Source of the DNA: Inquilinus sp. Marseille-Q2685
GTDB taxonomy: Bacteria > Pseudomonadota > Alphaproteobacteria > DSM-16000 > Inquilinaceae
NCBI RefSeq assembly: GCF_916619195.1
Contig: NZ_CAKAKL010000003.1
Span: 310,001-374,000 of the forward strand
Direction of reading: 5' to 3'
Length of the DNA stretch: 64,000 nucleotides
The notes under the pieces were generated by a model, which had not been told where the DNA came from, ran no database searches, and saw nothing but the letters and a program-made list of their open reading frames with translations. The first letter of the stretch is position 1; every line of letters begins with the position of its first letter. Both the position numbers and the translations under genes were made by a program. Shown here piece by piece: positions 51,881 through 64,000 of the stretch.

Positions 51881-52394
51881 ATGGTCCCAACACACGGTTG
51901 CAGCGCTAGCGCTGCCCTGGACGGATCGCCGTAGTCGCCCGGCACAGAGTGCTGGTTCCGGGCACCTGTCGAATGGTTGTTCGCTTCGGGCACGGGAAAG
52001 GTTTCGGCGAGGAACTCAGCATCGTCCGGTGGCTCGATGTCCCTTGTGCTGGATGATAGCTTTTTGCTGCAGCGGAAGCCGGCCAAGGCGGTCCCGACAG
52101 TGCGCTCCCGGGCTGGGAATGGGGAGGAGTGTGGGTTTGGAAAATGCGCCGTAACCCATTGATTTCTGGTTGGGCCGGACACGGGGTTTGTAGCCTCCAA
52201 TGTATTGAAATTACAGAGTTATTTACCTTCCACCCGGCTCACCAATCTCCATGCTAAATGGTTGATCTGTAACAGGGCCGGTCATCTTGATCACGGCCGC
52301 GCCCGCTTCCGTCAGACGTTGCCGAACCTTCTTCTGCTTCGCCTCGGGATGGCGCCGGCTCCTGTCGCCGGCCCGGCAGGGAAGCGCTGGCGAC
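51881..52394. other. Non-coding, lower-GC region at right edge of copper region
   Basis: About 510 bp with no convincing gene. Base composition drops visibly around 52140-52270 (for example AAATTACAGAGTTATTTACC near 52207). Short frames here lack ribosome sites and coding bias. The position, at the end of the copper genes and before unrelated ones, makes it a candidate boundary of an acquired segment, but no direct repeat, integrase or tRNA was found. Confidence 0.45.
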
Positions 52395-54002
52395 ATGCCG
52401 GAATATCAGCTTCGCATGATGGGCGCGGCCGCGTGCGCAGCCGACACCCTGACGAATCTGAAGCTGCCGGTCGATCCGGAGGGCGCCCTCGCCGAGCTCG
52501 GAGAAGGGCTGGAATTGACCGTCGCGCCCGCCTCGCCGGCCGCGGAGGGCGATGAAGGGGAGGACGAGGCCGAGCGGCAGGTGGTCGATCACAGCAACCG
52601 GCTTCAGGGCGTGCTCGCGAAGATGTTCCAGGCCTTCGAGGGGACACCCGAGACCTGGATCGGGAACGTCGTCCATATCGGCGGCCGGCACGGGCTGCAT
52701 GCGATGTGGGTGCTCCTCGCCCGCGAACTCGCCGCCAAGGGCATGCTGCTGTCGATGGACAAGTACTCGGAGGAGGGAAAGGCCGCGCTGGCCGGAAGCC
52801 TGATGGGCCTGACGGCGCTCGGGAACATTCTCGCCCTGGCCTATACCCGGAAGACCGGGACCAGCACCCGGGATTCGGACATCGGCTTGACGGCGAACTT
52901 CGCCCTGATGGTCGCCGGCACTGCCGTCGCCGGGGCGACGGGCGTTCTCGCCCCCATGGCGCCGATCGCCGCCAAGGCGTTGCTGACGGGCGCGGTGCGC
53001 GACGGGGTCTCGACCATGATCGGCCTCGACAACAACCAGGATGGCGTCATGGCGCCGTCATGGCTGTCCATGACCGCAGATTCGGTCCTGTATGCCGGAA
53101 CCCAGATCCTGCCGACCGCTCTGTTCTACTCGGGGTTCTTCCTGTCCGGGAACGCCGAGGCCTCAAAGGATCTCACCTGGGGGCAGAGCGCCTGGGAAGC
53201 AACCAAGTTCGCGGGCCTCTACGCCCTTCCCGAATTCGGCAACGGCCTGAGCTTTCCGGCGACGACGGTGCTTTGGGGCAAGCTGGTGGAGGGGGCGACC
53301 CCGATGCAGCTCAAGGATCTCAAGCTGCGCATCAAGCTGAAGTTTCCCACCCTGCACGACCTGATGATGCAGGCGGGCGGCATCATGCTGGCCCGTGTCG
53401 TCTACATCCAGCTCGTCAATGCCGGCCTGCTGGCCGTCAACAAGAACCTGATCACCCCGGAAAGGCTGGGGGACGCCGGCTACAACGTTGCATCGAACGC
53501 GATGAATTGTCTGCTCTGCTTCGCCCTGTACTATCCCTGGATCCTGGCCTGCACCACCAAGGCACGCCCGGCCCCCGAGGAGCGCGGGGCCACCGACGGG
53601 GAGGCAGGCGACGGCCTCCCGTGCTCATGCCGCCGGGCGACGATCGGGAGGAGGGCGAGGAGGCGGAGCAGGAAGAGGACGGGCATAGGCGCCGCGGCTC
53701 GGGCGAGGCTGCCGCCTAGCCAACCTCCGGTTGGAAACAGATGTACAGCCGTCGACGCTCCCCTTCGAGGAGCGTCGCCTTCTTGGCGGGATGCCGGAGG
53801 CCGCGAGGGTGAGCACGCACGCAAGCGGCCGGACGATCCGGGCATCATCTGCCGCAGGGTCGCGGATCCGGCGTCGCGGGCAGGCCGAGATGCGAGCATG
53901 ACTTCTCCTCGATCGACCGCCGACGCGACTGCGCACGGGTCCGCGTGTCTCCCGCGGGCCCGAAAGCCGGTGCGTACGGTCCGGGGCGAGCCCGCTAGCT
54001 GA
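52395..54002 (+). CDS. Unrecognised hydrophobic protein, probable frameshift near 53620
   Basis: Acidic N-terminus followed by long hydrophobic, Gly/Ala-rich helical segments (about residues 100-390), e.g. LTANFALMVAGTAVAGATG, suggesting membrane insertion; no family is recognised. From about 53620 the open frame turns into Arg-rich sequence using AGG codons, while the next frame reads as a natural charged tail (DDREEGEEAEQEEDG) stopping at 53719. One missing base near 53618-53622 would join them, so the real protein is probably about 441 aa, ending at 53719 just before a hairpin. The ATG at 52395 is chosen over a TTG at 52287. Confidence 0.55.
   Translation: MPEYQLRMMGAAACAADTLTNLKLPVDPEGALAELGEGLELTVAPASPAAEGDEGEDEAERQVVDHSNRLQGVLAKMFQAFEGTPETWIGNVVHIGGRHGLHAMWVLLARELAAKGMLLSMDKYSEEGKAALAGSLMGLTALGNILALAYTRKTGTSTRDSDIGLTANFALMVAGTAVAGATGVLAPMAPIAAKALLTGAVRDGVSTMIGLDNNQDGVMAPSWLSMTADSVLYAGTQILPTALFYSGFFLSGNAEASKDLTWGQSAWEATKFAGLYALPEFGNGLSFPATTVLWGKLVEGATPMQLKDLKLRIKLKFPTLHDLMMQAGGIMLARVVYIQLVNAGLLAVNKNLITPERLGDAGYNVASNAMNCLLCFALYYPWILACTTKARPAPEERGATDGEAGDGLPCSCRRATIGRRARRRSRKRTGIGAAARARLPPSQPPVGNRCTAVDAPLRGASPSWRDAGGREGEHARKRPDDPGIICRRVADPASRAGRDASMTSPRSTADATAHGSACLPRARKPVRTVRGEPAS
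53753..53777 (+). terminator. Hairpin after unrecognised protein gene
   Basis: CGACGCTCC (53753-53761) pairs with GGAGCGTCG (53769-53777) around a seven-base loop, followed by a short T-rich CTTCTT. It lies 34 bp after the stop codon at 53719 in the alternative frame, which supports that frame as the true end of the gene. Confidence 0.6.
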
Positions 54003-54915
54003 CCTTGGTGAAGCGGCCGAGGCTGCGGACGATGTTGTCGAGCAGACCGCCGCCCTCCGTTGCCGCGGCCTCGACCTGTCTCTGCACCGGCTGCCGGGCG
54101 AATCTCGGATCGACCAGGCGCCGGCGATGCTCGCGGATGGCGGCGCTGACGGCGAGGCGGAAGACGTTCGGGCTGAGGGGCTTGATGGCGAAGCGGTAGA
54201 TCTGCCCCTGGTTGATCAGCTTGACGATGGTGTCGGCGTCGGGGGCGGAGGTCGTGGCCACCACGGTGATGGAGGGGTCGATCTTGGCGACCCGCGCCAG
54301 CATGTCGGTGACGTCGACGCCGTCGACCTCGCTGTTGGTGACGATGACGCCGATCTCCTCCTGCTCCAGGATCTCCAGCGCCTCCTCCATGGTGGAGGCG
54401 GTCAGGATGCTGTAGTCGCGGGTGAACATCTCGAGCATTTCCTGGCGGTCGGCCGCCACGCCGTCGATCGCCAGCAGCTTGGTGGCGACGCCGAGCGGCG
54501 GCGTCAGCACCGCCTCGACCTCCTCGGCCGCGGCCGGGGCGGCGCGCGCGATGTCGACCGCCTCGGCGATGACCTGACGCAGCTCATCCTGGTTCCAGGG
54601 CTTGTTGAGGAAACGGAACACCTCGCCTTCATTGACCGCGCCGATGATGGCGACCAGGTCGCTGTAGCCGGTCAGCAGGATCCGCACCGTGTTGGGCCAG
54701 CGCTTGCAGACCTGCGACAGCAACTCGATGCCGACCATCTCCGGCATCCGCTGGTCGGAGACGATCACGTCGATCCGGTGGGCCTCCAGGATCGCCAAGG
54801 CCTCCCGCCCGCTGGTCGCGGTGTAGACGTCGTAGCTGGACCGGAACATCACCTTGAGCAGCTTCACGATGCGCTCTTCGTCGTCCACGAAGAGCAGGCT
54901 GGGCCTGTCAGTCAT
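53995..54915 (-). CDS. Response regulator with REC and pseudo-REC domains
   Basis: 306-aa two-component protein without DNA-binding output. REC1 (about 5-125): acidic pair Asp11-Asp12, phospho-acceptor Asp54 in IVSDQRMPEM, Lys105 in FLNKPW. REC2 (about 145-265) keeps the fold and Lys245 (FAIKPLSP), but the acceptor position is Asn194 (VIVTNSEVDG), so it cannot be phosphorylated in the normal way. REC1 resembles RpfG/HupR-type receivers. Start 54915 has AAGGAGAG upstream. Last gene of the leftward peroxidase-kinase-regulator set. Confidence 0.88.
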   Translation of the reverse strand: MTDRPSLLFVDDEERIVKLLKVMFRSSYDVYTATSGREALAILEAHRIDVIVSDQRMPEMVGIELLSQVCKRWPNTVRILLTGYSDLVAIIGAVNEGEVFRFLNKPWNQDELRQVIAEAVDIARAAPAAAEEVEAVLTPPLGVATKLLAIDGVAADRQEMLEMFTRDYSILTASTMEEALEILEQEEIGVIVTNSEVDGVDVTDMLARVAKIDPSITVVATTSAPDADTIVKLINQGQIYRFAIKPLSPNVFRLAVSAAIREHRRRLVDPRFARQPVQRQVEAAATEGGGLLDNIVRSLGRFTKVS

Positions 54916-54964
54916 CTCGCTCTCCTTCGTACCTCGAAGCGTCATGGGAGGGTGGCGGAACCGT

Positions 54965-56674
54965 CTATGCAGCCGCCTGCTCGAGCCGATGCTCGGCGTC
55001 GGCCTTGGCGCGGTGCGGCAGGATGATGGTGAAGGTGGTGCCGACGCCGACCTCGGACCGGGCGGAGATGGTGCCGCCATGGGTCTGGATGATGCGGTAG
55101 CAGATCGACAGCCCCATGCCGGTGCCCTTGCCGACATCCTTGGTGGTGAAGAACGGGTCGAAGATCCTGGGCAGCACGTCCGGGGGAATGCCGGTGCCGC
55201 TGTCCTCGATCTCGATCCGGATCGAGTCCTCGGATTCCGCCCGCGTGCGCAGGGTCAGCTTGCCTCGTTTGGGCTGGTCGGCCATGGCATGGGCGGCGTT
55301 GTTGATCAGGTTCAGGAACACCTGCTTCAGCTGCGTCGGCGATGCATGGATCCTGGGGATCTTGCCGTAGTCCTTGACCGTGTCCGCGATGTACTTGACC
55401 TCGGACCGCGCGATCAGGGCGGCGCTGTCCAGGGCCTCTTCTATGTCGACATATTCAAGGCGGCCTTTGTCGAGGCGCGAGAAGTTCTTCATCGTGATGA
55501 TCAGGTTGGTGATCTCCTCAAGGCCGTGCAGCCCCTCGTCGATCAGCATGTTGAGCTCGCCGATCCGGTCGTCGGGCTGCCCGTCCGCCGCGGCCGGCCG
55601 CAACTCCGCAACGGTGCCGGGGGCGGCCGTGCCGACCGGATGCATCTCCGCCATCTGGTCCCGGATCAGGCAGAACACGGCCTTCACATAGGCCAGCGGC
55701 GTGTTGATCTCGTGGGTGATGCCCGCCACCATCTGGCCCATGGCGGACAGCTTCGACGACTGGATCAGCTGCGACTGCGCGTCCTCATTGGCCTGCTGCA
55801 GCGCCGAATTGTCCTGGTTGAGCCGCCGGTAGTGCCGGCGTAGCAGATAGCCGGCCCAGGCCGTCGCGGCGATGAGCAGGAAAGTGCACGCCAGCACCAG
55901 GTCGCGCAGCAGCGACCGGTCGCGGTTCTGATCGGCTTCCAGGGCCTGCGCATCGCGCTGCAACCGATCGATGGCCTGGGCGGTCGGCACGGCCGTGAGG
56001 TCGACGATCAGCCTGGTGCCGAGCTGCTTCTGGCGGAGGATGACCGCCATATGGGCCAGCAGCGTCTCTGCCTTCGAAGCTGCCTCGGGCGATGCCCGGC
56101 CGGCGGCCTCGCGCAGGGCCGTCATCTGGGTGTCGATGGCCTGCCGCAGCTGCTCGCTGGGGGTGACGATGTAGCTGGCCATATCGATGACGATGCGGGT
56201 CAGCAGGTCGGCGATCGGCGGATTGGATTGAGGCCTGCTGCCCTCGAGCTCGGCGAACAGGTCGGCCGCGGCGATCGGCAACAGGCGTGAGGAGTTGCTG
56301 ATGATCGAATACTGCGCCTTGATCCGTTCGACGATGCGGATCTTGTCGTCCATGGCCGAGCGATAGGCGGCCAGCGAGGCCGACAGATCGTGGCCCCACG
56401 CCGGGGCGCCCGCGGCCAGCGTCTCGATCGCTCGATAGCGCTCGGCCAGCTTGCCGACGGGGGCGGCCACGGAGTCGTAATTGGGGTTCAGGCCCAGCTC
56501 CAGGCTCAGGACGTCGGCGCTCCACAGGGCGTCGATCTGCTTCATCTCGGCGAGGCTGGCCAGCAGCTCCGACGGCCGGGTGTCCGGCGCGCGCAGCATG
56601 GCCAGAAGGGTCGCCAGTACGGCGAGAAGAACGGCGATGAAGACACTGCAGACGATCCTGGATGTGACGATCAT
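54965..56674 (-). CDS. Membrane sensor histidine kinase
   Basis: 569-aa histidine kinase. Two helices (about 8-27 and 258-278) bound a large, mostly helical periplasmic sensor of about 230 residues. A coiled coil leads to the HisKA site [13 protein letters not shown] (His321), then HATPase motifs [21 protein letters not shown] and [12 protein letters not shown]. The dimer region has a long insertion after the H box. Partner of the REC-REC protein, which starts 49 bp downstream; the diheme protein ends 49 bp upstream. The helical sensor may respond to that redox partner. Confidence 0.9.
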
Positions 56675-56723
56675 GACGTGATCTCCGTCACCGGCCGGTG
56701 GCTCTTCGATTGCGGTGGGCAGT

Positions 56724-57776
56724 TCACTGCGAAGGGCGGGCGTCGAGGGGACGGCCCTTGTATTCGCCGGTCAGGGTTCGCAGGAACGCCACGATCAGCG
56801 CGTTGTCGCGGGACGGGATCTGGCGCCCGAGCTGGTATTTCGCCATGGCGTCGACGGCTTCGGTCAGCGTCGCGGCTGAGCCGTCGTTGAAGTAGGGCGC
56901 CGTGAGCGCGACGTTGCGCAGGCTGGGGACCCGGAAGACGAACTTGTCCTCTTCGGCCTTGGTGGTGTTGTAGAGGCCGAAATCGGGATCTGCGGCGGCG
57001 CCGTGCGACCGGAAGTAGTCCCCGGGCGTCCCCAGCACGCCGAACACCTGGAACATGTTGCCGCCGACATTCACCCCCTGGTGGCAGGAGGCGCAGCCAT
57101 AGGTCTTGAACAGGCTGTAGCCCTCGAGCTCGTCGGGGCTGAGGGCTGCCGCGTCGCCGCGCAGGAATTTGTCGAACCGCGCGTTCGGCGTGGTCAGGGA
57201 ACGTTCGTAGACGACGAGCGCGTCGGTGATGGTCTGCGGCTGCATCCCTTCCGGATAGAGGCCGGCGAAAGCCTGGCTCAGCGCCTGGTCCTGCGACAGC
57301 TTGCCGATGATGGCCGGCCAGGTTTCGCCCATCACGGTCGGGTCGTGGATCGCCGCCTCGATCTGCTGTTCCGCCGACGCGAAGCGACCGTCCCACATCA
57401 GGCGGAAATTCAGTGTCGAGTTGAAGATCGTCAGCGTGTTCCGCTTCCCGGCCTTGCCGCCCAGCCCGCGCGACTTGGGCAGCCCGTCGTCGCCGCCATT
57501 GCCGAGATCGTGACAGGACGAGCAGGCGTTCTCATTGTTCCTGGACAGCCGGACGTCGTGGAACAGGGCCTCGCCCAGATCGACCTTCCGCTGATCCAGC
57601 TCCAGCTGGAACGGGATCGGCGCGATCGGCTCCGGCGTCTGCGCCACGACCAGGGCGGGACCCAGAAACGCCAGGGCCAGGGCGGGCATGGCGGCGATCA
57701 GGAGCGGCCGCCTGGTGGCCGGGGCCGAAGCCTGTCCTGTCGCACGTAGACGCCGAGGGTCGAGATCGCGCTTCAT
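56724..57776 (-). CDS. Diheme cytochrome c peroxidase/MauG-family protein
   Basis: 350-aa periplasmic diheme protein. Signal segment about 24-45 (LLIAAMPALALAFLGP); heme motifs CSSCH (Cys85-Cys88-His89) and CASCH (Cys228-Cys231-His232). Other CCP/MauG features are present: FHDVRLSRN before heme 1, WDGRFASAEQQ and a final RVPSLRNVALTAPYFNDG. It may reduce H2O2 or modify a protein partner. First gene of the leftward set with the kinase and regulator; divergent from the FHA-polyferredoxin gene. The ATG at 57776 is preferred over 57812. Confidence 0.9.
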   Translation of the reverse strand: MKRDLDPRRLRATGQASAPATRRPLLIAAMPALALAFLGPALVVAQTPEPIAPIPFQLELDQRKVDLGEALFHDVRLSRNNENACSSCHDLGNGGDDGLPKSRGLGGKAGKRNTLTIFNSTLNFRLMWDGRFASAEQQIEAAIHDPTVMGETWPAIIGKLSQDQALSQAFAGLYPEGMQPQTITDALVVYERSLTTPNARFDKFLRGDAAALSPDELEGYSLFKTYGCASCHQGVNVGGNMFQVFGVLGTPGDYFRSHGAAADPDFGLYNTTKAEEDKFVFRVPSLRNVALTAPYFNDGSAATLTEAVDAMAKYQLGRQIPSRDNALIVAFLRTLTGEYKGRPLDARPSQ

Positions 57777-58000
57777 CTTCTGCCTGCCCAGATGAATTCG
57801 TGGCCACGACATTGGGGCGTGGCGAGAATTATTGTCTGCCGGAAGAAGATCTCCGCACCATGCGATCTCGTTATGGCCGTATCATCGCGGCGATGGGCGG
57901 AGAGCCTCCGCTGTTGCGGTACCGTCAGGACCCGCGGGCCTCCGGAACCAGAGTGCTGACACGCACTCCCGAGCGTCGCGCACCACTGGCCAGGACATGA

Positions 58001-61000
58001 ATGTCCCGGCCAGTCGTTGCCCAGCCGCAACTGCAGGGGACGCCTGACATGCTCGCCCGGACCGCCGAACGCAAGATGCTCGCCGTACGGGGCGTGCTGC
58101 TGACCGGATGGGTCGGGCTCATCGCCTCACTGTTCTGGGACCCCGTCTCGACGGGCTGGACCAGCCAGGCCGGCGGTGTGGTCGCGGTCCAGGACCGCAT
58201 GCTGGCCAGCGAGCCCTATCAGGTCGGGGCCCGGGTGTTCTGGACCATGGTCGTGCCGGTCATTCCGCTGTTCCTGATGGTGTTCGGTCACGAGGCATGG
58301 CGCCGTATCTGCCCGCTGTCGCTGATGTCCCAGCTGCCGCGCTATCTCGGCTGGCAGCGGCAGCGCACGGTGGTGCGGCGCCGGACCGGCAAGCTCGAGC
58401 GCACCCTGGCCCTGATCCCCCGCGGCGGCTGGCTCGAACGCAACGCGTGGTACGTCCAGTTCGGCATCCTGTTCGCCGGGCTGAATGCGCGGATCCTGTT
58501 CATCAACAGCGATCGCACCGCACTGGCGGCGGCGCTGATCCTGGTCCTGGCCGCGGCGTTCCTCGTCGGCTTTCTCTGGGGCGGCAAGTCCTGGTGCAAC
58601 TACTTCTGCCCGGCGAACATCGTCCAGAAGATCTACACCGAGCCGCGCGGGCTTTTGGAAAGCGCACCGCATCTGCAGCGCCCGGCCGTGCCGCAGTCGA
58701 TGTGCCGCAGCAGCTCGCCGGACGGCGACCGCAGCGCCTGCGTCGGCTGCACCGCCAACTGCGGCGACATCGACCTCGAGCAATCCTACTGGAGTTCGAT
58801 CCTCGATCCGGCCCGGCGTCGCATCTACTACATGTTCAACGGGCTGATCATCGGCTTCTACTGGTATTTCTACCTCTATGCCGGAAGCTGGGACTACTAT
58901 CTCTCCGGCGTCTGGAGCCATGAGTCCGGGGCGCTCGGCCGGCTTCTCGATCCGGGCCTGTATCTCGCCGGCCAGGCGATACCGATCCCCAAGCTCGCCG
59001 CCGTGCCGCTGGTCATGGGGGCCGCTGTCCTGGCTTCGCTGGCCCTGGGCACCGGCCTGGAGCGGGCCTATCGCTGGGCGCGGAGCCGCGCCGGCAAGCC
59101 GATCCCCGAGGTCGAGGTCGTCAACCATTGCCTGAGCGTCAGCGCCTATCTGTCGATCAACATCTTCTATCTGCATGGCGGCCGGCCCAGCCTGCTGATG
59201 CTGCCCTCGGCCGCGATCCACTTCGTCGATATCCTGATCGTCTCGCTGAGCACCATGTGGCTGTGGCAGGCGCTGAACCGCTCGGCCTTCAGGTATGAGC
59301 GCGAGAAGATCGCCTCGAGCCTGCTCGATCAGCTGAAGAAGCTGAAGGTCGATGTCAGCCGGTACCTGGACGGCCGGTCAATCGGCGAGCTCAAGCCCGA
59401 CGAGGTCTACGTCCTGGCCAAGGTGTTGCCGGAGCTGCCGCACGACCAGAAGCTCAAGGCCTACCGTAACCTGCTGGACGATGCCATCAGCACGGGCAAG
59501 ACCGGGGCCGTGTCCTCGGCCGAGCTGCTGCATGACGTGCGGCAGCAGATGGAGATCAGCGACGAAGACCACCTGCGGCTGCTGGAGGAGCCGGAGATCT
59601 CCGAGGCAGCGGTTCTCGATGCCGTCCGCACCACCACCACCAAGGAGCGGATGGCCTGCGTCGCCAACTACCATCAGATCATCGGCCGGTATCTCATCGC
59701 CCATGTCGCGTCCGGCCGGATGCTCGACACGATCCGGACCGACCCGGGCATGCAGGCGACCATCCGGACCCTCCGCACCAGCCTGCAGATCACCGATGCC
59801 GAGCACCGGAGCGTGATGGCGGAATTCACCGCCCAGGGTGGCATGCTGGCCAGGCAGATGGACTCGATCCTCGACGGCTTGGCGAAGCTGCAGGGGGCGT
59901 ATTTCTGCCTGCAGAGCTCCAGCCTGCCCGATCGCTTCGCCCGGACGCTGAACGAGCTGCTGCTGGCAGCCGGGTCGGACCGTTTCACGGCGATGCATGA
60001 AGCCGCCCTGTCCTGCCTGCACGCCTTCGGCGACGGAAAGATCGCCCGCTGGTACGCGCAGGACCTGGCTGCGTTGGCGGGCGACGGCGTGATCGACGCG
60101 CTGTCCCGCCCGGTCGCGGGGCAGGAGGAGGTCCGCTGGAGCGAGGCGCTCGGCGAGACCATCACGGCCATCCTGGAGGGCGCGCCCGACACCGACGACA
60201 AGCGCCCCGCGGAGCTGCCGCGCCGGTCGTTCCGCGAGGTCATCGCTGCCGGCCTCGACCGCGCCGCCAGCCTGGACCTGCTGCTGGAGCACGGGTCACC
60301 GGTCGCCCGCGCCCTGACGCTGACAGCGTTCAGCTATGTCGACGACGCCCTGTCGCGCGCCGCGGCGCGCCGGCTTGCGGACAGTGGGGAGGGCGACGGC
60401 CACTGGCTGCTGCGGCAGACGGTGGACATCCTGAGTGGCGCCGCGGTGGCGGAGGCTGGTGCGCCCGAGCCGGTGATCCACGCCGTGATCGTGCTGCCCG
60501 ACGGCACGCAGAGCCGCTCGACGCATGCGCAGCCGGTGATCACCGTCGGCCGAGGCCCCGGCAACGACATCACCATCGCCAGCCCGCTGGTGTGGCCATA
60601 CCACATGGCGCTGTCCTTGGCCCATGGCGAAGTCCGTCTCCTGCGGCTCGACGACGCCGGGATCCTCATCGACGGCGTTGCCTGCGACGGTGAAGCAACC
60701 ACCCTTCGCCGCGACGCCCTGCTGACCTTCGGGCCGGGCGCCGGGCCCACCCTCCGGATCGACTGGCAGGACGCCACCGAAAGCCGCTGCCTGCGGTCCT
60801 TCGACCCGGTGTTGCGGCTGGTGGCGCTGGCCCGCAGCCCGGCGCTGCGGCCGCTGGGCCTCTCCGCCCTCGCCGAGACCGTCCGCGACTGCCGGGTCGG
60901 ACGTTTCCGGGCCGGCGACGAACTGCCGGCGGCCGGGCCGGGCGAGATGCGCTTCCTCCAGTTCGGATCAGCCCGCACATCCGCGCGCGCCTTCGAGGCC

Positions 61001-61165
61001 GGAGATCTCATGGATCCGGGCGATGGCGACGGCGCGCTCGAGATCGTCAGCGACTTCGCGGTCGTCATGACCATCCCGCGGCCCGACCCGGCTGCGACGG
61101 CGCCGGAACCGACGGGGCATCCCGAGGCGGCGGATCTCGCGCCGCCCCTCCGCTACGCCAGCTAA
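58001..61165 (+). CDS. Membrane polyferredoxin (NapH/CcoG-like) fused to helical and FHA domains
   Basis: 1054-aa fusion. The N-terminal about 420 residues form several membrane helices with Fe-S motifs of the NapH/NosR/CcoG type: RRICPLSLM, then WCNYFCPANIVQKIYTEP, and ACVGCTANCGDIDLEQ, enough for two clusters. A long soluble helical region follows (about 440-800; unassigned), then a forkhead-associated domain (about 827-920) with VGRGPGNDITI and YHMALSL, which bind phosphothreonine. The gene is 33 bp upstream of a reductase. It probably links membrane electron flow to Ser/Thr phosphorylation. A second ATG at 58049, with AGGGGAC upstream, is an alternative start. Confidence 0.82.
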   Translation: MSRPVVAQPQLQGTPDMLARTAERKMLAVRGVLLTGWVGLIASLFWDPVSTGWTSQAGGVVAVQDRMLASEPYQVGARVFWTMVVPVIPLFLMVFGHEAWRRICPLSLMSQLPRYLGWQRQRTVVRRRTGKLERTLALIPRGGWLERNAWYVQFGILFAGLNARILFINSDRTALAAALILVLAAAFLVGFLWGGKSWCNYFCPANIVQKIYTEPRGLLESAPHLQRPAVPQSMCRSSSPDGDRSACVGCTANCGDIDLEQSYWSSILDPARRRIYYMFNGLIIGFYWYFYLYAGSWDYYLSGVWSHESGALGRLLDPGLYLAGQAIPIPKLAAVPLVMGAAVLASLALGTGLERAYRWARSRAGKPIPEVEVVNHCLSVSAYLSINIFYLHGGRPSLLMLPSAAIHFVDILIVSLSTMWLWQALNRSAFRYEREKIASSLLDQLKKLKVDVSRYLDGRSIGELKPDEVYVLAKVLPELPHDQKLKAYRNLLDDAISTGKTGAVSSAELLHDVRQQMEISDEDHLRLLEEPEISEAAVLDAVRTTTTKERMACVANYHQIIGRYLIAHVASGRMLDTIRTDPGMQATIRTLRTSLQITDAEHRSVMAEFTAQGGMLARQMDSILDGLAKLQGAYFCLQSSSLPDRFARTLNELLLAAGSDRFTAMHEAALSCLHAFGDGKIARWYAQDLAALAGDGVIDALSRPVAGQEEVRWSEALGETITAILEGAPDTDDKRPAELPRRSFREVIAAGLDRAASLDLLLEHGSPVARALTLTAFSYVDDALSRAAARRLADSGEGDGHWLLRQTVDILSGAAVAEAGAPEPVIHAVIVLPDGTQSRSTHAQPVITVGRGPGNDITIASPLVWPYHMALSLAHGEVRLLRLDDAGILIDGVACDGEATTLRRDALLTFGPGAGPTLRIDWQDATESRCLRSFDPVLRLVALARSPALRPLGLSALAETVRDCRVGRFRAGDELPAAGPGEMRFLQFGSARTSARAFEAGDLMDPGDGDGALEIVSDFAVVMTIPRPDPAATAPEPTGHPEAADLAPPLRYAS

Positions 61166-61198: not shown

Positions 61199-62884
61199 AT
61201 GGACACGCTGACCGAAACTATGACAGCTGAAGCACAGGGGACCGATCTGGCGGTTCTCGTGTTCCTGGTCTTCGTCTTCGTCTCCGACAGCGAGAAGGAC
61301 ATCACACCGCAGGAGGTGCAGCGTTTCCAGATGCTGATGAACGACCTGCACTGGACCGACAACGAGGACATGTGCCGGGCGCTGACGACGCTGCGGTTCA
61401 ACTATACGGCGACCTGGGCCGACTACGAGGCCGGGACGTTGGCGGCGGACCGGGATGCGATCGCCGGCCAGCTGGTCCGGTTCGACCGGGCGTTCGGCAG
61501 CGAACGCGCGGACGCGCTGAAGGCATCGTTGGCCGACCTGGTGCAGCGCATCAGCCGGGGACCGTCACGATCAGGCGTCAGATTCGCCCTCGGGGAGTCG
61601 AAGGGACGGGCCAGCGCCCGGCAGGAGCTCGAAGCGCTGCTGGCGCCTCCGATATCCGCCGCAGCGACGGCCGCGTCGCGCGACCCCGAGATCGAACCGA
61701 AGCCGGAGCCGGCTCTCACTGCAACTCCAGGGACCGAGTCTTGGCCCGCGGCGCGGATGGCGATCGGCGACGCGCCGGTGTGGCAGGGTGGCCAGCTCAG
61801 GGTGCGTTGCATCTCCTGCGTCGACGAGACGCGGGATACCAGGACCTTCACCCTGGCCGCCGACCCGCCCCGCCTTTTCAGCTACAAGCCCGGCCAGTTC
61901 GTCACGCTGGAGCTGCCGATCGACGGCCGCATCCTGCGCCGCAGCTACACGATCTCGTCCTCGCCGTCGCGGCCCTACACCCTGTCGATCACGGTCAAGC
62001 GCGTGCCCAAGGGCTGGGTCTCGAACTGGCTGCACGACACCATGACGCCGGGGTTCGAGCTCGATCTGATCGGCCCGCATGGCCATTTCACCTGCGTCGA
62101 CCGGCCCGCATCCAAGCTGCTGTTCATCGCCGGCGGCAGCGGCATCACGCCGGCGATGTCGATGCTCCGGTGGCTCGCCGACACCGGCTGCGCCGCCGAC
62201 ATCGTGCTGATCAACAACGTCCGGACGCCCGACGACGTGATCTTCGGACAGGAGCTGCAGCATCTCAGCTCGCGCCTGGGCGATGCCCTGCGCCTCGCGG
62301 TCGTGCCGTCGCGGGTGTCCCCGGGGCAGTCCTGGAACGGCCCGACCGGCCATTTCAGCGAGGCGCTGCTGCGGCTGCTGGCGCCGGACGTGCTGGAGCG
62401 CGAGGTTTTCGTCTGCGGCCCCTCCGGCTATATGGCGACGATCAGGATGCTTCTGCAGGCACGAGGCTTCCCCATGGCCCGCTATCATGAGGAGAGCTTC
62501 GGCGGCGCACCGGCCTCTGCGCCCGCGCTGCCGGCACCCCAGGTGTCGCGGGCGCCCCAGGCGCCGCCGGTTCCTGGAGTGACCGCCGCGACCGCACCGG
62601 CCTCGATCGCCGCCGCATCCGCCGAGGCCAGGCTGGTCTTCCGCAACAGCAACCGGACGATCGACTGCGGCGCGGACGAATCCATCCTCGACGCCGCCGA
62701 CCGCCATGCAGTCCCGGTCCCGAGCTCCTGCCGCTCCGGCGTCTGCGGCACCTGCCGGATGCGGAAGCTGAGCGGTACCGTCAGCATGGAGGGCCAGGCA
62801 GCCCTGTCCGATCCCGAGATCGCGGAGGGCTATTTCCTGGCCTGCATCGGCCAGGCCCGGGGGACCGTCGTCATCGACGCCTGA
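61199..62884 (+). CDS. TerB-like/FAD-NAD(P)H reductase/2Fe-2S ferredoxin fusion
   Basis: 561-aa electron-transfer protein. N-terminal about 110 residues are helical and TerB-like (VFLVFVFVSDSEKDITPQEV). A flavin reductase follows: FAD motif RRSYTISSS, NAD-binding FIAGGSGITPAMSML and VFVCGPSGYM. After a Pro/Ala linker comes a plant-type ferredoxin with Cys511, Cys516, Cys519 (CRSGVCGTC) and Cys549. The order FNR-ferredoxin resembles Hcr and similar reductases. It should pass NAD(P)H electrons to the membrane polyferredoxin encoded just upstream. Confidence 0.88.
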   Translation: MDTLTETMTAEAQGTDLAVLVFLVFVFVSDSEKDITPQEVQRFQMLMNDLHWTDNEDMCRALTTLRFNYTATWADYEAGTLAADRDAIAGQLVRFDRAFGSERADALKASLADLVQRISRGPSRSGVRFALGESKGRASARQELEALLAPPISAAATAASRDPEIEPKPEPALTATPGTESWPAARMAIGDAPVWQGGQLRVRCISCVDETRDTRTFTLAADPPRLFSYKPGQFVTLELPIDGRILRRSYTISSSPSRPYTLSITVKRVPKGWVSNWLHDTMTPGFELDLIGPHGHFTCVDRPASKLLFIAGGSGITPAMSMLRWLADTGCAADIVLINNVRTPDDVIFGQELQHLSSRLGDALRLAVVPSRVSPGQSWNGPTGHFSEALLRLLAPDVLEREVFVCGPSGYMATIRMLLQARGFPMARYHEESFGGAPASAPALPAPQVSRAPQAPPVPGVTAATAPASIAAASAEARLVFRNSNRTIDCGADESILDAADRHAVPVPSSCRSGVCGTCRMRKLSGTVSMEGQAALSDPEIAEGYFLACIGQARGTVVIDA

Positions 62885-62888
62885 AGGC

Positions 62889-62922
62889 GGTAAGGCGACG
62901 GCCGATCGGCCGTCGCCTTACC
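62889..62922. terminator. Perfect palindromic bidirectional terminator
   Basis: A perfect palindrome of 34 bases: arms GGTAAGGCGACGGCC and GGCCGTCGCCTTACC around GATC. It separates the rightward reductase (ends 62884) from the leftward SUMF1-like gene, whose TAA stop (62920-62918) lies inside the stem. It should stop transcription from both sides. Confidence 0.8.
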
Positions 62923-64000
62923 GGGTCAGGTCGTCGATCAGGCTCTGCGGGTCGGCGGCGCCGTCGTCGCGCATCCGCCGCATGTGCCGGACGAAGAGGT
63001 CGACATAGGGCAACAGCGCGTCGGAGCCGCGGGCGTGCAACTCGGCCTTCAGCGCCGGCAGCTGGGCGGCGATCACCTCGTCCGAATAGTCGCTGCTGGT
63101 GCTGAGAACGGTGTCGAGATAGGTCTCGCGGGAGGTCTTGACGGTGTCCTCAAGCCCGTCCCGCTGGTCCTCCATCTCTCCGATCCGCGCGGTGGCGTCG
63201 GCGATGGCCTTGCGGATCTGGGTGTCCTGGCGCCGCGCCTGCAATTGCCGCAGCGCCGGCCGGGCCACGCCGTCGATCGCCCTCTGCACCGCCAGCAGCC
63301 GCTGGTGGTCGATGCGCAGCTTGTTGCCCAGCAGGGCGCCGACATTGATCAGCAGCCGGACGGTGCGGTCGCGCGCATCGTTGCGGTCGACCAGCGCCTC
63401 ACGGATCGACCGGCCGGCGTCGCGCAGCTGGATGCGGACCGTCTCGTCGCCCGCCTGGTCGGCGAGACGGTCGAGGGTGCCGAGCGCGGCGTCCTCACGG
63501 CGTGCGGTGGACGGCGCCTCGCCGGAGGACGGCATCGCCTCCCAGGCCTTCTCGATCTCGGTCAGCTTCTCGGGCGAGGTCACCACCGGAGCCGCCACCA
63601 CCAGGCGGAATCCCAGCTGCCGGCTGGCCGTGGCCGTGGCGGCGCCGGCCGTGTAGTAGGGCATCTCGACCCGCATGCCGGACCGGATCTGGCTGAGCGG
63701 CGTGTTGTAGTCGCCGCCGCGTGCGATGAAGCCGCCGGCCTGGCCGTGCAGCCGGCCGCGCCGGTTCAGCCGGAAGGATTCGAGCATCATCTCCGAGGCG
63801 TTGCCCAGGATGTCGTGGAGGCCGAGCGGGTTGGGCTTGAGCAGCCCGATCGGGTGCATCCGGCCTTCGGCTGAGCCGCTGCCCTGGTACCAGACATAGG
63901 CAGCGGCGCCCTCCGGCATCGGGAATCGTGGCGCCAGAAAATTCTCGGAGGACACGGCCATGCCGCCGCGGGCCGCATATTCCCATTCGTCTTCGGTCGG
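62918..64000 (-). CDS. Formylglycine-generating (SUMF1)-like protein with helical tail (5' end outside window)
   Basis: Only the C-terminal about 360 residues are in the window; the gene enters from the right edge. It begins within an FGE-sulfatase fold (TEDEWEYAARGG, then GLHDILGNASEMMLESF and the final ARGGDYNTP and GFRLVVA), followed by about 200 residues of alpha helix. The catalytic Cys positions of true FGE are not seen in this part, so it is probably a non-enzymatic SUMF1 domain as found with Ser/Thr kinase and FHA systems. It converges on the reductase. Confidence 0.82.
   Translation of the reverse strand, partial: PTEDEWEYAARGGMAVSSENFLAPRFPMPEGAAAYVWYQGSGSAEGRMHPIGLLKPNPLGLHDILGNASEMMLESFRLNRRGRLHGQAGGFIARGGDYNTPLSQIRSGMRVEMPYYTAGAATATASRQLGFRLVVAAPVVTSPEKLTEIEKAWEAMPSSGEAPSTARREDAALGTLDRLADQAGDETVRIQLRDAGRSIREALVDRNDARDRTVRLLINVGALLGNKLRIDHQRLLAVQRAIDGVARPALRQLQARRQDTQIRKAIADATARIGEMEDQRDGLEDTVKTSRETYLDTVLSTSSDYSDEVIAAQLPALKAELHARGSDALLPYVDLFVRHMRRMRDDGAADPQSLIDDLTR

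Follow-up and report, generated by a model that had tools for sequence, protein, structure and literature searches.

An FHA-tailed, NapH-like membrane iron–sulfur protein of Inquilinus and its NAD(P)H reductase: a possible signal-controlled electron-transfer system with exchangeable inputs

The regulation of respiratory-type membrane electron carriers is usually ascribed to the expression of their genes or to substrate supply. Among the closest described systems, the modules of the NapH, NosR and PceC type carry two CX3CP motifs, to which NapH and NosR add two further [4Fe-4S] motifs, as set out in PMC5928378; moreover, one account proposes that NapH-like proteins are transmembrane electron carriers with interchangeable partners (PMC8238504). 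Here we analyze a stretch of 64,000 nucleotides (the window; positions 310,001 to 374,000 of NZ_CAKAKL010000003.1, contig 3 of the 7.29-Mb genome) from the alphaproteobacterium Inquilinus sp. Marseille-Q2685, which codes for a membrane iron–sulfur (Fe-S) protein with an FHA-fold tail. The initial annotation had read it as a single chain in which a helical region links a membrane Fe-S module to an FHA domain, and the Pfam Fer4_5 score, the AlphaFold2 (AF2) model and the structural alignment of the FHA part all uphold that reading; it had overlooked a cyclic-nucleotide-binding (CNB)-like piece that follows the FHA domain. We place at roughly even chances the proposal of a signal-controlled electron-transfer system of two proteins, with this protein as its membrane subunit and with a signalling input that has been swapped between lineages. 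The component parts are of kinds already known; what is new is the way they are combined, the swapping of signal domains and a five-gene cassette. No paper describing or naming a family with this union of FHA, iron–sulfur and NapH-like parts was found in the literature searched, which lacks most subscription journals. The parts of the protein and its reductase partner are:

58049..59308, + strand: membrane Fe-S module, residues 17–436 of the reported open reading frame (ORF), from AF2 helices, loop charges, invariant columns and Fer4_5
59309..60439, + strand: helical linker, residues 437–813, from AF2 (predicted local distance difference test, pLDDT, 87.9), HEAT_2 and structural matches
60476..60790, + strand: FHA-fold domain, residues 826–930, without the phosphothreonine-binding Ser and Asn
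60791..61120, + strand: truncated CNB-like tail without the phosphate-binding cassette, from hhalign to the CNB domains of relatives
61199..62884, + strand: NAD(P)H oxidoreductase, from Pfam FAD_binding_6, NAD_binding_1 and Fer2 and from alignment

The ORF (58001–61165, + strand; 1054 codons without an internal stop) is a real, intact gene. It is conserved, since its nearest relative, from a genome of the same genus labelled ‘Mycobacterium’ sp. KBS0706, is 88% identical over residues 2–1054, and full-length relatives in other orders share 41–45% identity. The part of the initial annotation that gives way here is the start: the Agrobacterium and cyanobacterial proteins begin at Met17, and the gene therefore probably starts at 58049 rather than at 58001. 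Two of the six searched genomes of the source genus have the gene, which thus displays a patchy distribution within the genus.

The AF2 model (1038 residues, 73 sequences in the alignment, mean pLDDT 84.2, predicted template modelling score 0.54) and the loop charges give the membrane module eight predicted transmembrane (TM) helices with both termini inside. The Lys/Arg-rich loops are those between TM2 and TM3 (12 such residues) and between TM4 and TM5 (6), the TM1–TM2 and TM5–TM6 loops having one each. Seven cysteines (104, 199, 203, 235, 247, 250 and 254) are invariant across the 73 sequences, as are His97 and His224 in the module; because the charged loops and the helix prediction together set the topology, all seven cysteines are predicted to lie on the cytosolic side. 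They form one CX3CP motif (C199–C203), a lone C104-P and one four-Cys set (C235/247/250/254).

In common with the NapH/NosR/PceC-type modules, the window protein belongs to Fer4_5 (PF12801; 25.8 bits against a gathering cut-off of 22) and has TM helices with CX3CP; an hhalign comparison with three true NapH proteins of relatives, in which two CX3CP and two [4Fe-4S] motifs are seen, aligns this motif with a probability of 70% (E 4e-5), although over only 30 columns. It differs from that type in having a single CX3CP plus a lone Cys and a single four-Cys set in place of two [4Fe-4S] motifs, in lacking an extracytosolic FMN domain, and in adding C-terminal helical, FHA and CNB-like parts and a dedicated reductase. 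Membership of the NapH/NosR type by motif was accordingly rejected, as was true NapH/MauN (TIGR02163; 10.5 bits against a curated cut-off of 213.05, also given as 213). CcoG/RdxA/FixG, likewise membrane Fe-S proteins, match weakly around the CX3CP motif, and the CcoG model (TIGR02745) yields 13.7 bits against a curated cut-off of 316.7; no CcoG was found in the window's own genome. By its sequence, the module appears to be fairly called NapH-like; the CcoG half of the earlier ‘NapH/CcoG-like polyferredoxin’ falls away with these scores and ‘polyferredoxin’ with the count of seven cysteines. A phmmer search of the protein against the PDB returned one weak match, HP1242.

The second component is encoded directly downstream. 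This reductase consists of a helical N-terminal domain, FAD- and NAD-binding domains and a C-terminal plant-type [2Fe-2S] ferredoxin domain, and shares the FAD–NAD–Fer2 order with the GbcB-like and hybrid-cluster-type NAD(P)H reductases. Unlike GbcB itself, against whose NCBIfam model it scores 383 bits with a cut-off of 500, the partner reductase bears an extra N-terminal domain. In proteobacteria this is helical in appearance, with no Pfam match in the three scanned; in cyanobacteria it is an FHA domain in eight of eight scanned (Pfam E 9.2e-12 or better). Across 14 aligned cyanobacterial reductases (the L044 copy, cut by a contig end, was left out) the FHA domain keeps Gly-Arg and the Ser/His pair in every case and the Asn in only two (L058 and L077). 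Counting same-strand adjacent genes, the reductase accompanies 34 of the 82 relatives in addition to the window protein, spanning alpha-, beta- and gammaproteobacterial as well as cyanobacterial members; it lies upstream rather than downstream of the membrane Fe-S gene in L069, and a reductase 8 kb away on the opposite strand in L034 was counted as absent.

The remainder of the chain is a composite tail. Structure prediction agrees with the earlier claim that the region of about residues 440–800 is helical: residues 437–813 are helical throughout except for one short strand, and the last ~60 residues are HEAT-like (structural matches of 57–60 residues at Z of about 6). Pfam HEAT_2 is matched in seven of the 35 proteins with a reductase (window included) and in eight of the 48 without. 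For the rest of the linker no clear solved relative was found by Foldseek (best E 0.44) or by a second structural comparison (none at Z 8), a result that does not make it a new fold. The FHA domain scores just short of the Pfam cut-off of 20.7 bits (18.7 with the whole protein, 20.5 with its C-terminal part), and its modelled fold is secure, aligning with the solved domains 3poa and 3po8 at Z 14.5 over 95–97 residues and with OdhI at 14.4, so that the earlier assignment to the FHA fold is confirmed. In FHA domains the phosphopeptide is contacted directly by Arg, Ser and Asn, according to PMC4037201. When set against the Gly, Arg, Ser, His and Asn of a phosphothreonine-binding FHA domain, the window protein retains Gly-Arg and His and lacks the Ser and Asn, with VWPYH in place of VSRxH; among the 16 proteobacterial rows the Asn is found in none and the Ser in one (L017, itself without the Arg). 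A parallel is offered by type III secretion system (T3SS) proteins such as PrgH, described in PMC3635987 as having an FHA fold without the motif, probably for protein contacts. The window protein resembles these non-phosphopeptide folds (PrgH/YscD/MxiG) in its poorly kept phosphothreonine residues and in a weak Pfam Yop-YscD_cpl match, and differs in that its FHA domain is fused to a redox protein, with no T3SS.

Beyond the FHA domain, the alphaproteobacterial tails align by hhalign with CNB domains from elsewhere in the family (97.5% over 68 columns; 1% for an FHA control). The phosphate-binding cassette, which we take to be represented by the GE..R motif visible in L020, L025 and L026, is missing in all alphaproteobacterial rows of the window's clade, the window protein included. 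A profile search of the PDB with the whole alignment had only CNB-containing proteins among the best 60 of 235 matches. Pfam ENT and ParD matches in the scan of the window's proteins were below cut-off.

In the window, the membrane Fe-S and reductase genes form one arm of a divergent five-gene cassette, whose other arm and central region are:

53995..55137, − strand: response regulator, from Pfam Response_reg in two stretches
54965..56674, − strand: DAHL histidine kinase, from Pfam DAHL (4.8e-40) and HATPase_c (6.8e-30)
56724..57812, − strand: diheme cytochrome c peroxidase (CCP)-type protein, from Pfam CCP_MauG (2.3e-48)
57813..58048, no strand: intergenic region between the two arms, from sequence, probably regulatory

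The response regulator combines one canonical receiver with a second receiver-like domain that has no aspartate at the phospho-acceptor place, and neither Pfam nor inspection of its sequence revealed an output domain; its start more likely lies near MTDRPSLLFVDD, the listed ORF start falling within the kinase gene. The kinase has its H-box His321 together with N and G boxes. The diheme protein has the two CxxCH motifs (at 97 and 240) of a diheme CCP domain and is thus a predicted peroxidase, and an N-terminal hydrophobic stretch suggests that it is exported. It also keeps a Met where the solved CCPs 9qdt and 1nml have one, presumably an axial heme ligand. MauG was rejected for this neighbor (TIGR03791; 116.3 bits against a cut-off of 443.85), the alignment placing it nearer the CCPs. 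The window's clade in the family tree has 16 rows: all five genes are present in 13 of the 13 full-length members, the other four being absent from the three short forms, and in two members, from R. etli and A. fabrum, the cassette resides on conjugative plasmids. Also in the window, a 571-aa ORF (52287–54002) with membrane-like stretches matches neither Pfam nor NCBIfam, and its first 400 residues are unmatched in the examined loci.

The pairing of the peroxidase with the DAHL sensor extends beyond the cassette. Genomes of 98 cyanobacteria and 142 alphaproteobacteria gave seven DAHL loci above the family cut-off, and since a CCP gene is directly upstream of the DAHL gene in six of them (L107, L114, L115, L116, L119 and window 54965–57812), the two probably constitute a heme-protein/sensor pair with an existence of its own. 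DAHL is otherwise known from a Campylobacter chemoreceptor that senses several ligands, as reported in PMC9796306. The window's genome itself codes for a second CCP next to a DAHL hybrid histidine kinase (L120 6445–10277, contig 3), ~37 kb beyond the window edge.

In phyletic terms the family is mainly cyanobacterial. A scan of 84,980 species genomes recovered 295 relatives, of which 80 were kept, and a plasmid search gave 36 records. In separate genome samples, relatives of whatever architecture occur in 36 of 292 cyanobacterial genomes, and matches in seven of 398 Pseudomonadota genomes, with only two full length (the window's and G349). The fusion is thus uncommon, in keeping with the initial annotation. 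The tree of 87 rows separates proteobacterial (23) from cyanobacterial (64) members, but its root is a midpoint, and hence the direction of transfer is not shown by it. The tails vary across the family (L001–L003, L008, L009, L036, L055 and L087, being self, duplicate, distant, short or cut, were dropped from the tail and reductase counts): with an adjacent reductase, FHA occurs in 28 of 35 proteins, window included, and cNMP_binding in 22 of 35, and without one the 48 tails include 39 with cNMP_binding, six with FHA and two with EF-hands. The EF-hand tails belong to Microcystis members (L076 and L085), in which they suggest a calcium-controlled variant. At the other extreme, a stand-alone module of 433–434 residues without tail or reductase (L008, L009, L036 and L055) is found on plasmids of the R. 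leguminosarum group and in R. bangladeshense.

Neighboring genes of other members also fit a swap of inputs: L020 has a dCache-PAS-GGDEF protein encoded directly after the reductase, L025 has a CCP gene after the reductase, and in Nostoc L035 (5068–9404) the surroundings of the membrane Fe-S gene include genes for a CCP, a DAHL-SpoIIE and a HAMP-SpoIIE protein; the DAHL sensor there has a SpoIIE (PP2C-type) phosphatase domain as its fusion partner rather than a kinase.

From the gene set, folds, conserved cysteines, losses of ligand residues and synteny observed above, we infer a possible electron path, its direction, acceptor and control. In the reductase, electrons taken from NAD(P)H would travel by way of FAD and the [2Fe-2S] cluster and then reach the cytosolic-side Fe-S cluster or clusters of the membrane protein. 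The membrane protein in turn would release them within the membrane or on its periplasmic side; in the window's lineage their likeliest acceptor would be the exported diheme peroxidase of the neighboring gene, or quinone. The helical/FHA/CNB-like tail would be a regulatory and docking module. In the window's lineage it would read neither phosphothreonine nor a cyclic nucleotide and might instead be a surface on which proteins dock, the reductase and the output-less response regulator being candidates. The DAHL kinase would adjust the flow together with the diheme protein, which would sense redox state or peroxide for it, whereas residues and gene order in the Nostocales point to control through the FHA domain and a kinase.

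Several points weigh against this proposal. In the membrane module we found no conserved site where heme or flavin could sit within the membrane, and the route by which electrons would cross is therefore hard to explain; further, of the first CX3CP motif seen in NapH only a lone Cys is left. The 48 of 82 examined members without an adjacent reductase include most of the cyanobacterial ones, so that another donor must serve there. The association of FHA tails with the reductase (28/35 versus 6/48) shrinks on the tree to only four independent pairs, which leave a sign test powerless, and was set aside. The CCP gene adjoins family members outside the alphaproteobacterial clade at just two loci, and the contact between response regulator and tail is a possible one and a weak point of the scheme. 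If the proposal is nonetheless true, a carrier–reductase core with an exchangeable signalling front end would bring transmembrane electron flow under post-translational control. The exchanged front ends (Ser/Thr kinase with FHA, CNB, EF-hand, and two-component system with heme peroxidase) would then form a natural comparison series, and the CCP–DAHL pairing would give a poorly known sensor domain a concrete redox-sensing partner.

Of the alternatives, the one that fares best, though we consider it unlikely, is an assembly or activation factor akin to the CcoG- or Nap/Nos-type helpers, whose electrons would serve the maturation or activation of the diheme peroxidase, or of some other exported metalloprotein, rather than its running. 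The presence of the CCP gene within the cassette speaks for such a role, for which NosR and NapH, discussed as activation and electron-transfer factors in PMC5928378, provide a precedent; however, most relatives have no adjacent CCP gene, and the CcoG and NapH models miss the protein by hundreds of bits. Slightly less probable still is the reading that the protein senses redox state instead of carrying electrons, with the reductase setting the oxidation state of the clusters and the tail reporting it to partners. More than half of the chain consists of signalling-type and linker domains, the end domain swaps among FHA, CNB and EF-hands, and signalling genes flank the membrane Fe-S gene, all as expected of a sensor, but a sensor would seem to need no dedicated reductase, and eight TM helices would be many for one. 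Improbable, finally, is the idea of the initial annotation that the FHA domain binds a phosphothreonine protein so that phosphorylation gates electron flow in the window protein itself: its genuine fold with Gly-Arg and His, the intact residues, reductase FHA and downstream Ser/Thr kinase of cyanobacterial relatives, and a Ser/Thr kinase gene ~5 kb beyond the window edge (L105 5487–7049) count in its favor, but it is left unsupported because the Ser and Asn are missing and the conserved cassette includes no Ser/Thr kinase, and the reductase of the window's lineage has a helical domain instead of an FHA.

That nearby kinase is not assigned to the cassette, since among alphaproteobacterial loci it is seen with the cassette only in L015. 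Its surroundings (window 62918–64000 and L105 5487–13001) code for an FGE-sulfatase-type protein, the kinase and a VgrG-like baseplate protein and lead away from the cassette; the set resembles a type VI secretion system-type cluster and is likewise found near the cassette elsewhere only in L015.

Gating by phosphorylation fits the cyanobacterial relatives much better than it does the window protein, and on their residues and gene order it would be a good testable hypothesis there. Ten of the 18 cyanobacterial FHA rows have all of the phosphothreonine-binding residues (L029, L030, L031, L034, L037, L039, L041, L052, L057 and L061), and the other eight are incomplete (L026–L028, L033, L046, L050, L053 and L059). 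A same-strand Ser/Thr kinase gene follows downstream in eight loci with intact residues and comes directly after the reductase gene in five of these (L037, L039, L041, L052 and L057), a Cu/Zn superoxide dismutase gene intervening in L029 and L031. All five kinases scanned with Pfam are CHASE2-kinases (L029, L031, L037, L041 and L057), a kind absent from the window's cassette. As CHASE2 matches number 6–20 per genome in four genomes of 7.5–9.8 Mb, this position is unlikely to be due to chance, although the lineages are related and amount to few events; no kinase match was found in the 42 rows of the CNB clade, for which the flank lengths vary.

We therefore advance, as a tentative extension of the signal-controlled electron-transfer proposal, a scenario in which the CHASE2 kinase of the Nostocales, equipped with an extracytoplasmic sensor, puts a phosphorylation mark on a partner, and the FHA domains of the Fe-S protein and the reductase read it, coupling or uncoupling the two and thereby switching transmembrane electron flow. 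In the alphaproteobacteria the core might have been re-wired on plasmids to an input from the diheme peroxidase and the DAHL two-component system, leaving the FHA and CNB domains behind as fossils. Around the cyanobacterial loci, convergent genes for TPR-CHAT proteins lie by the CHASE2 kinase operon in L037, L057 and L029, with ShlB-type transporter genes in L037 and L057, and in L057 and L029 the Fe-S gene has DUF928 genes upstream of it.

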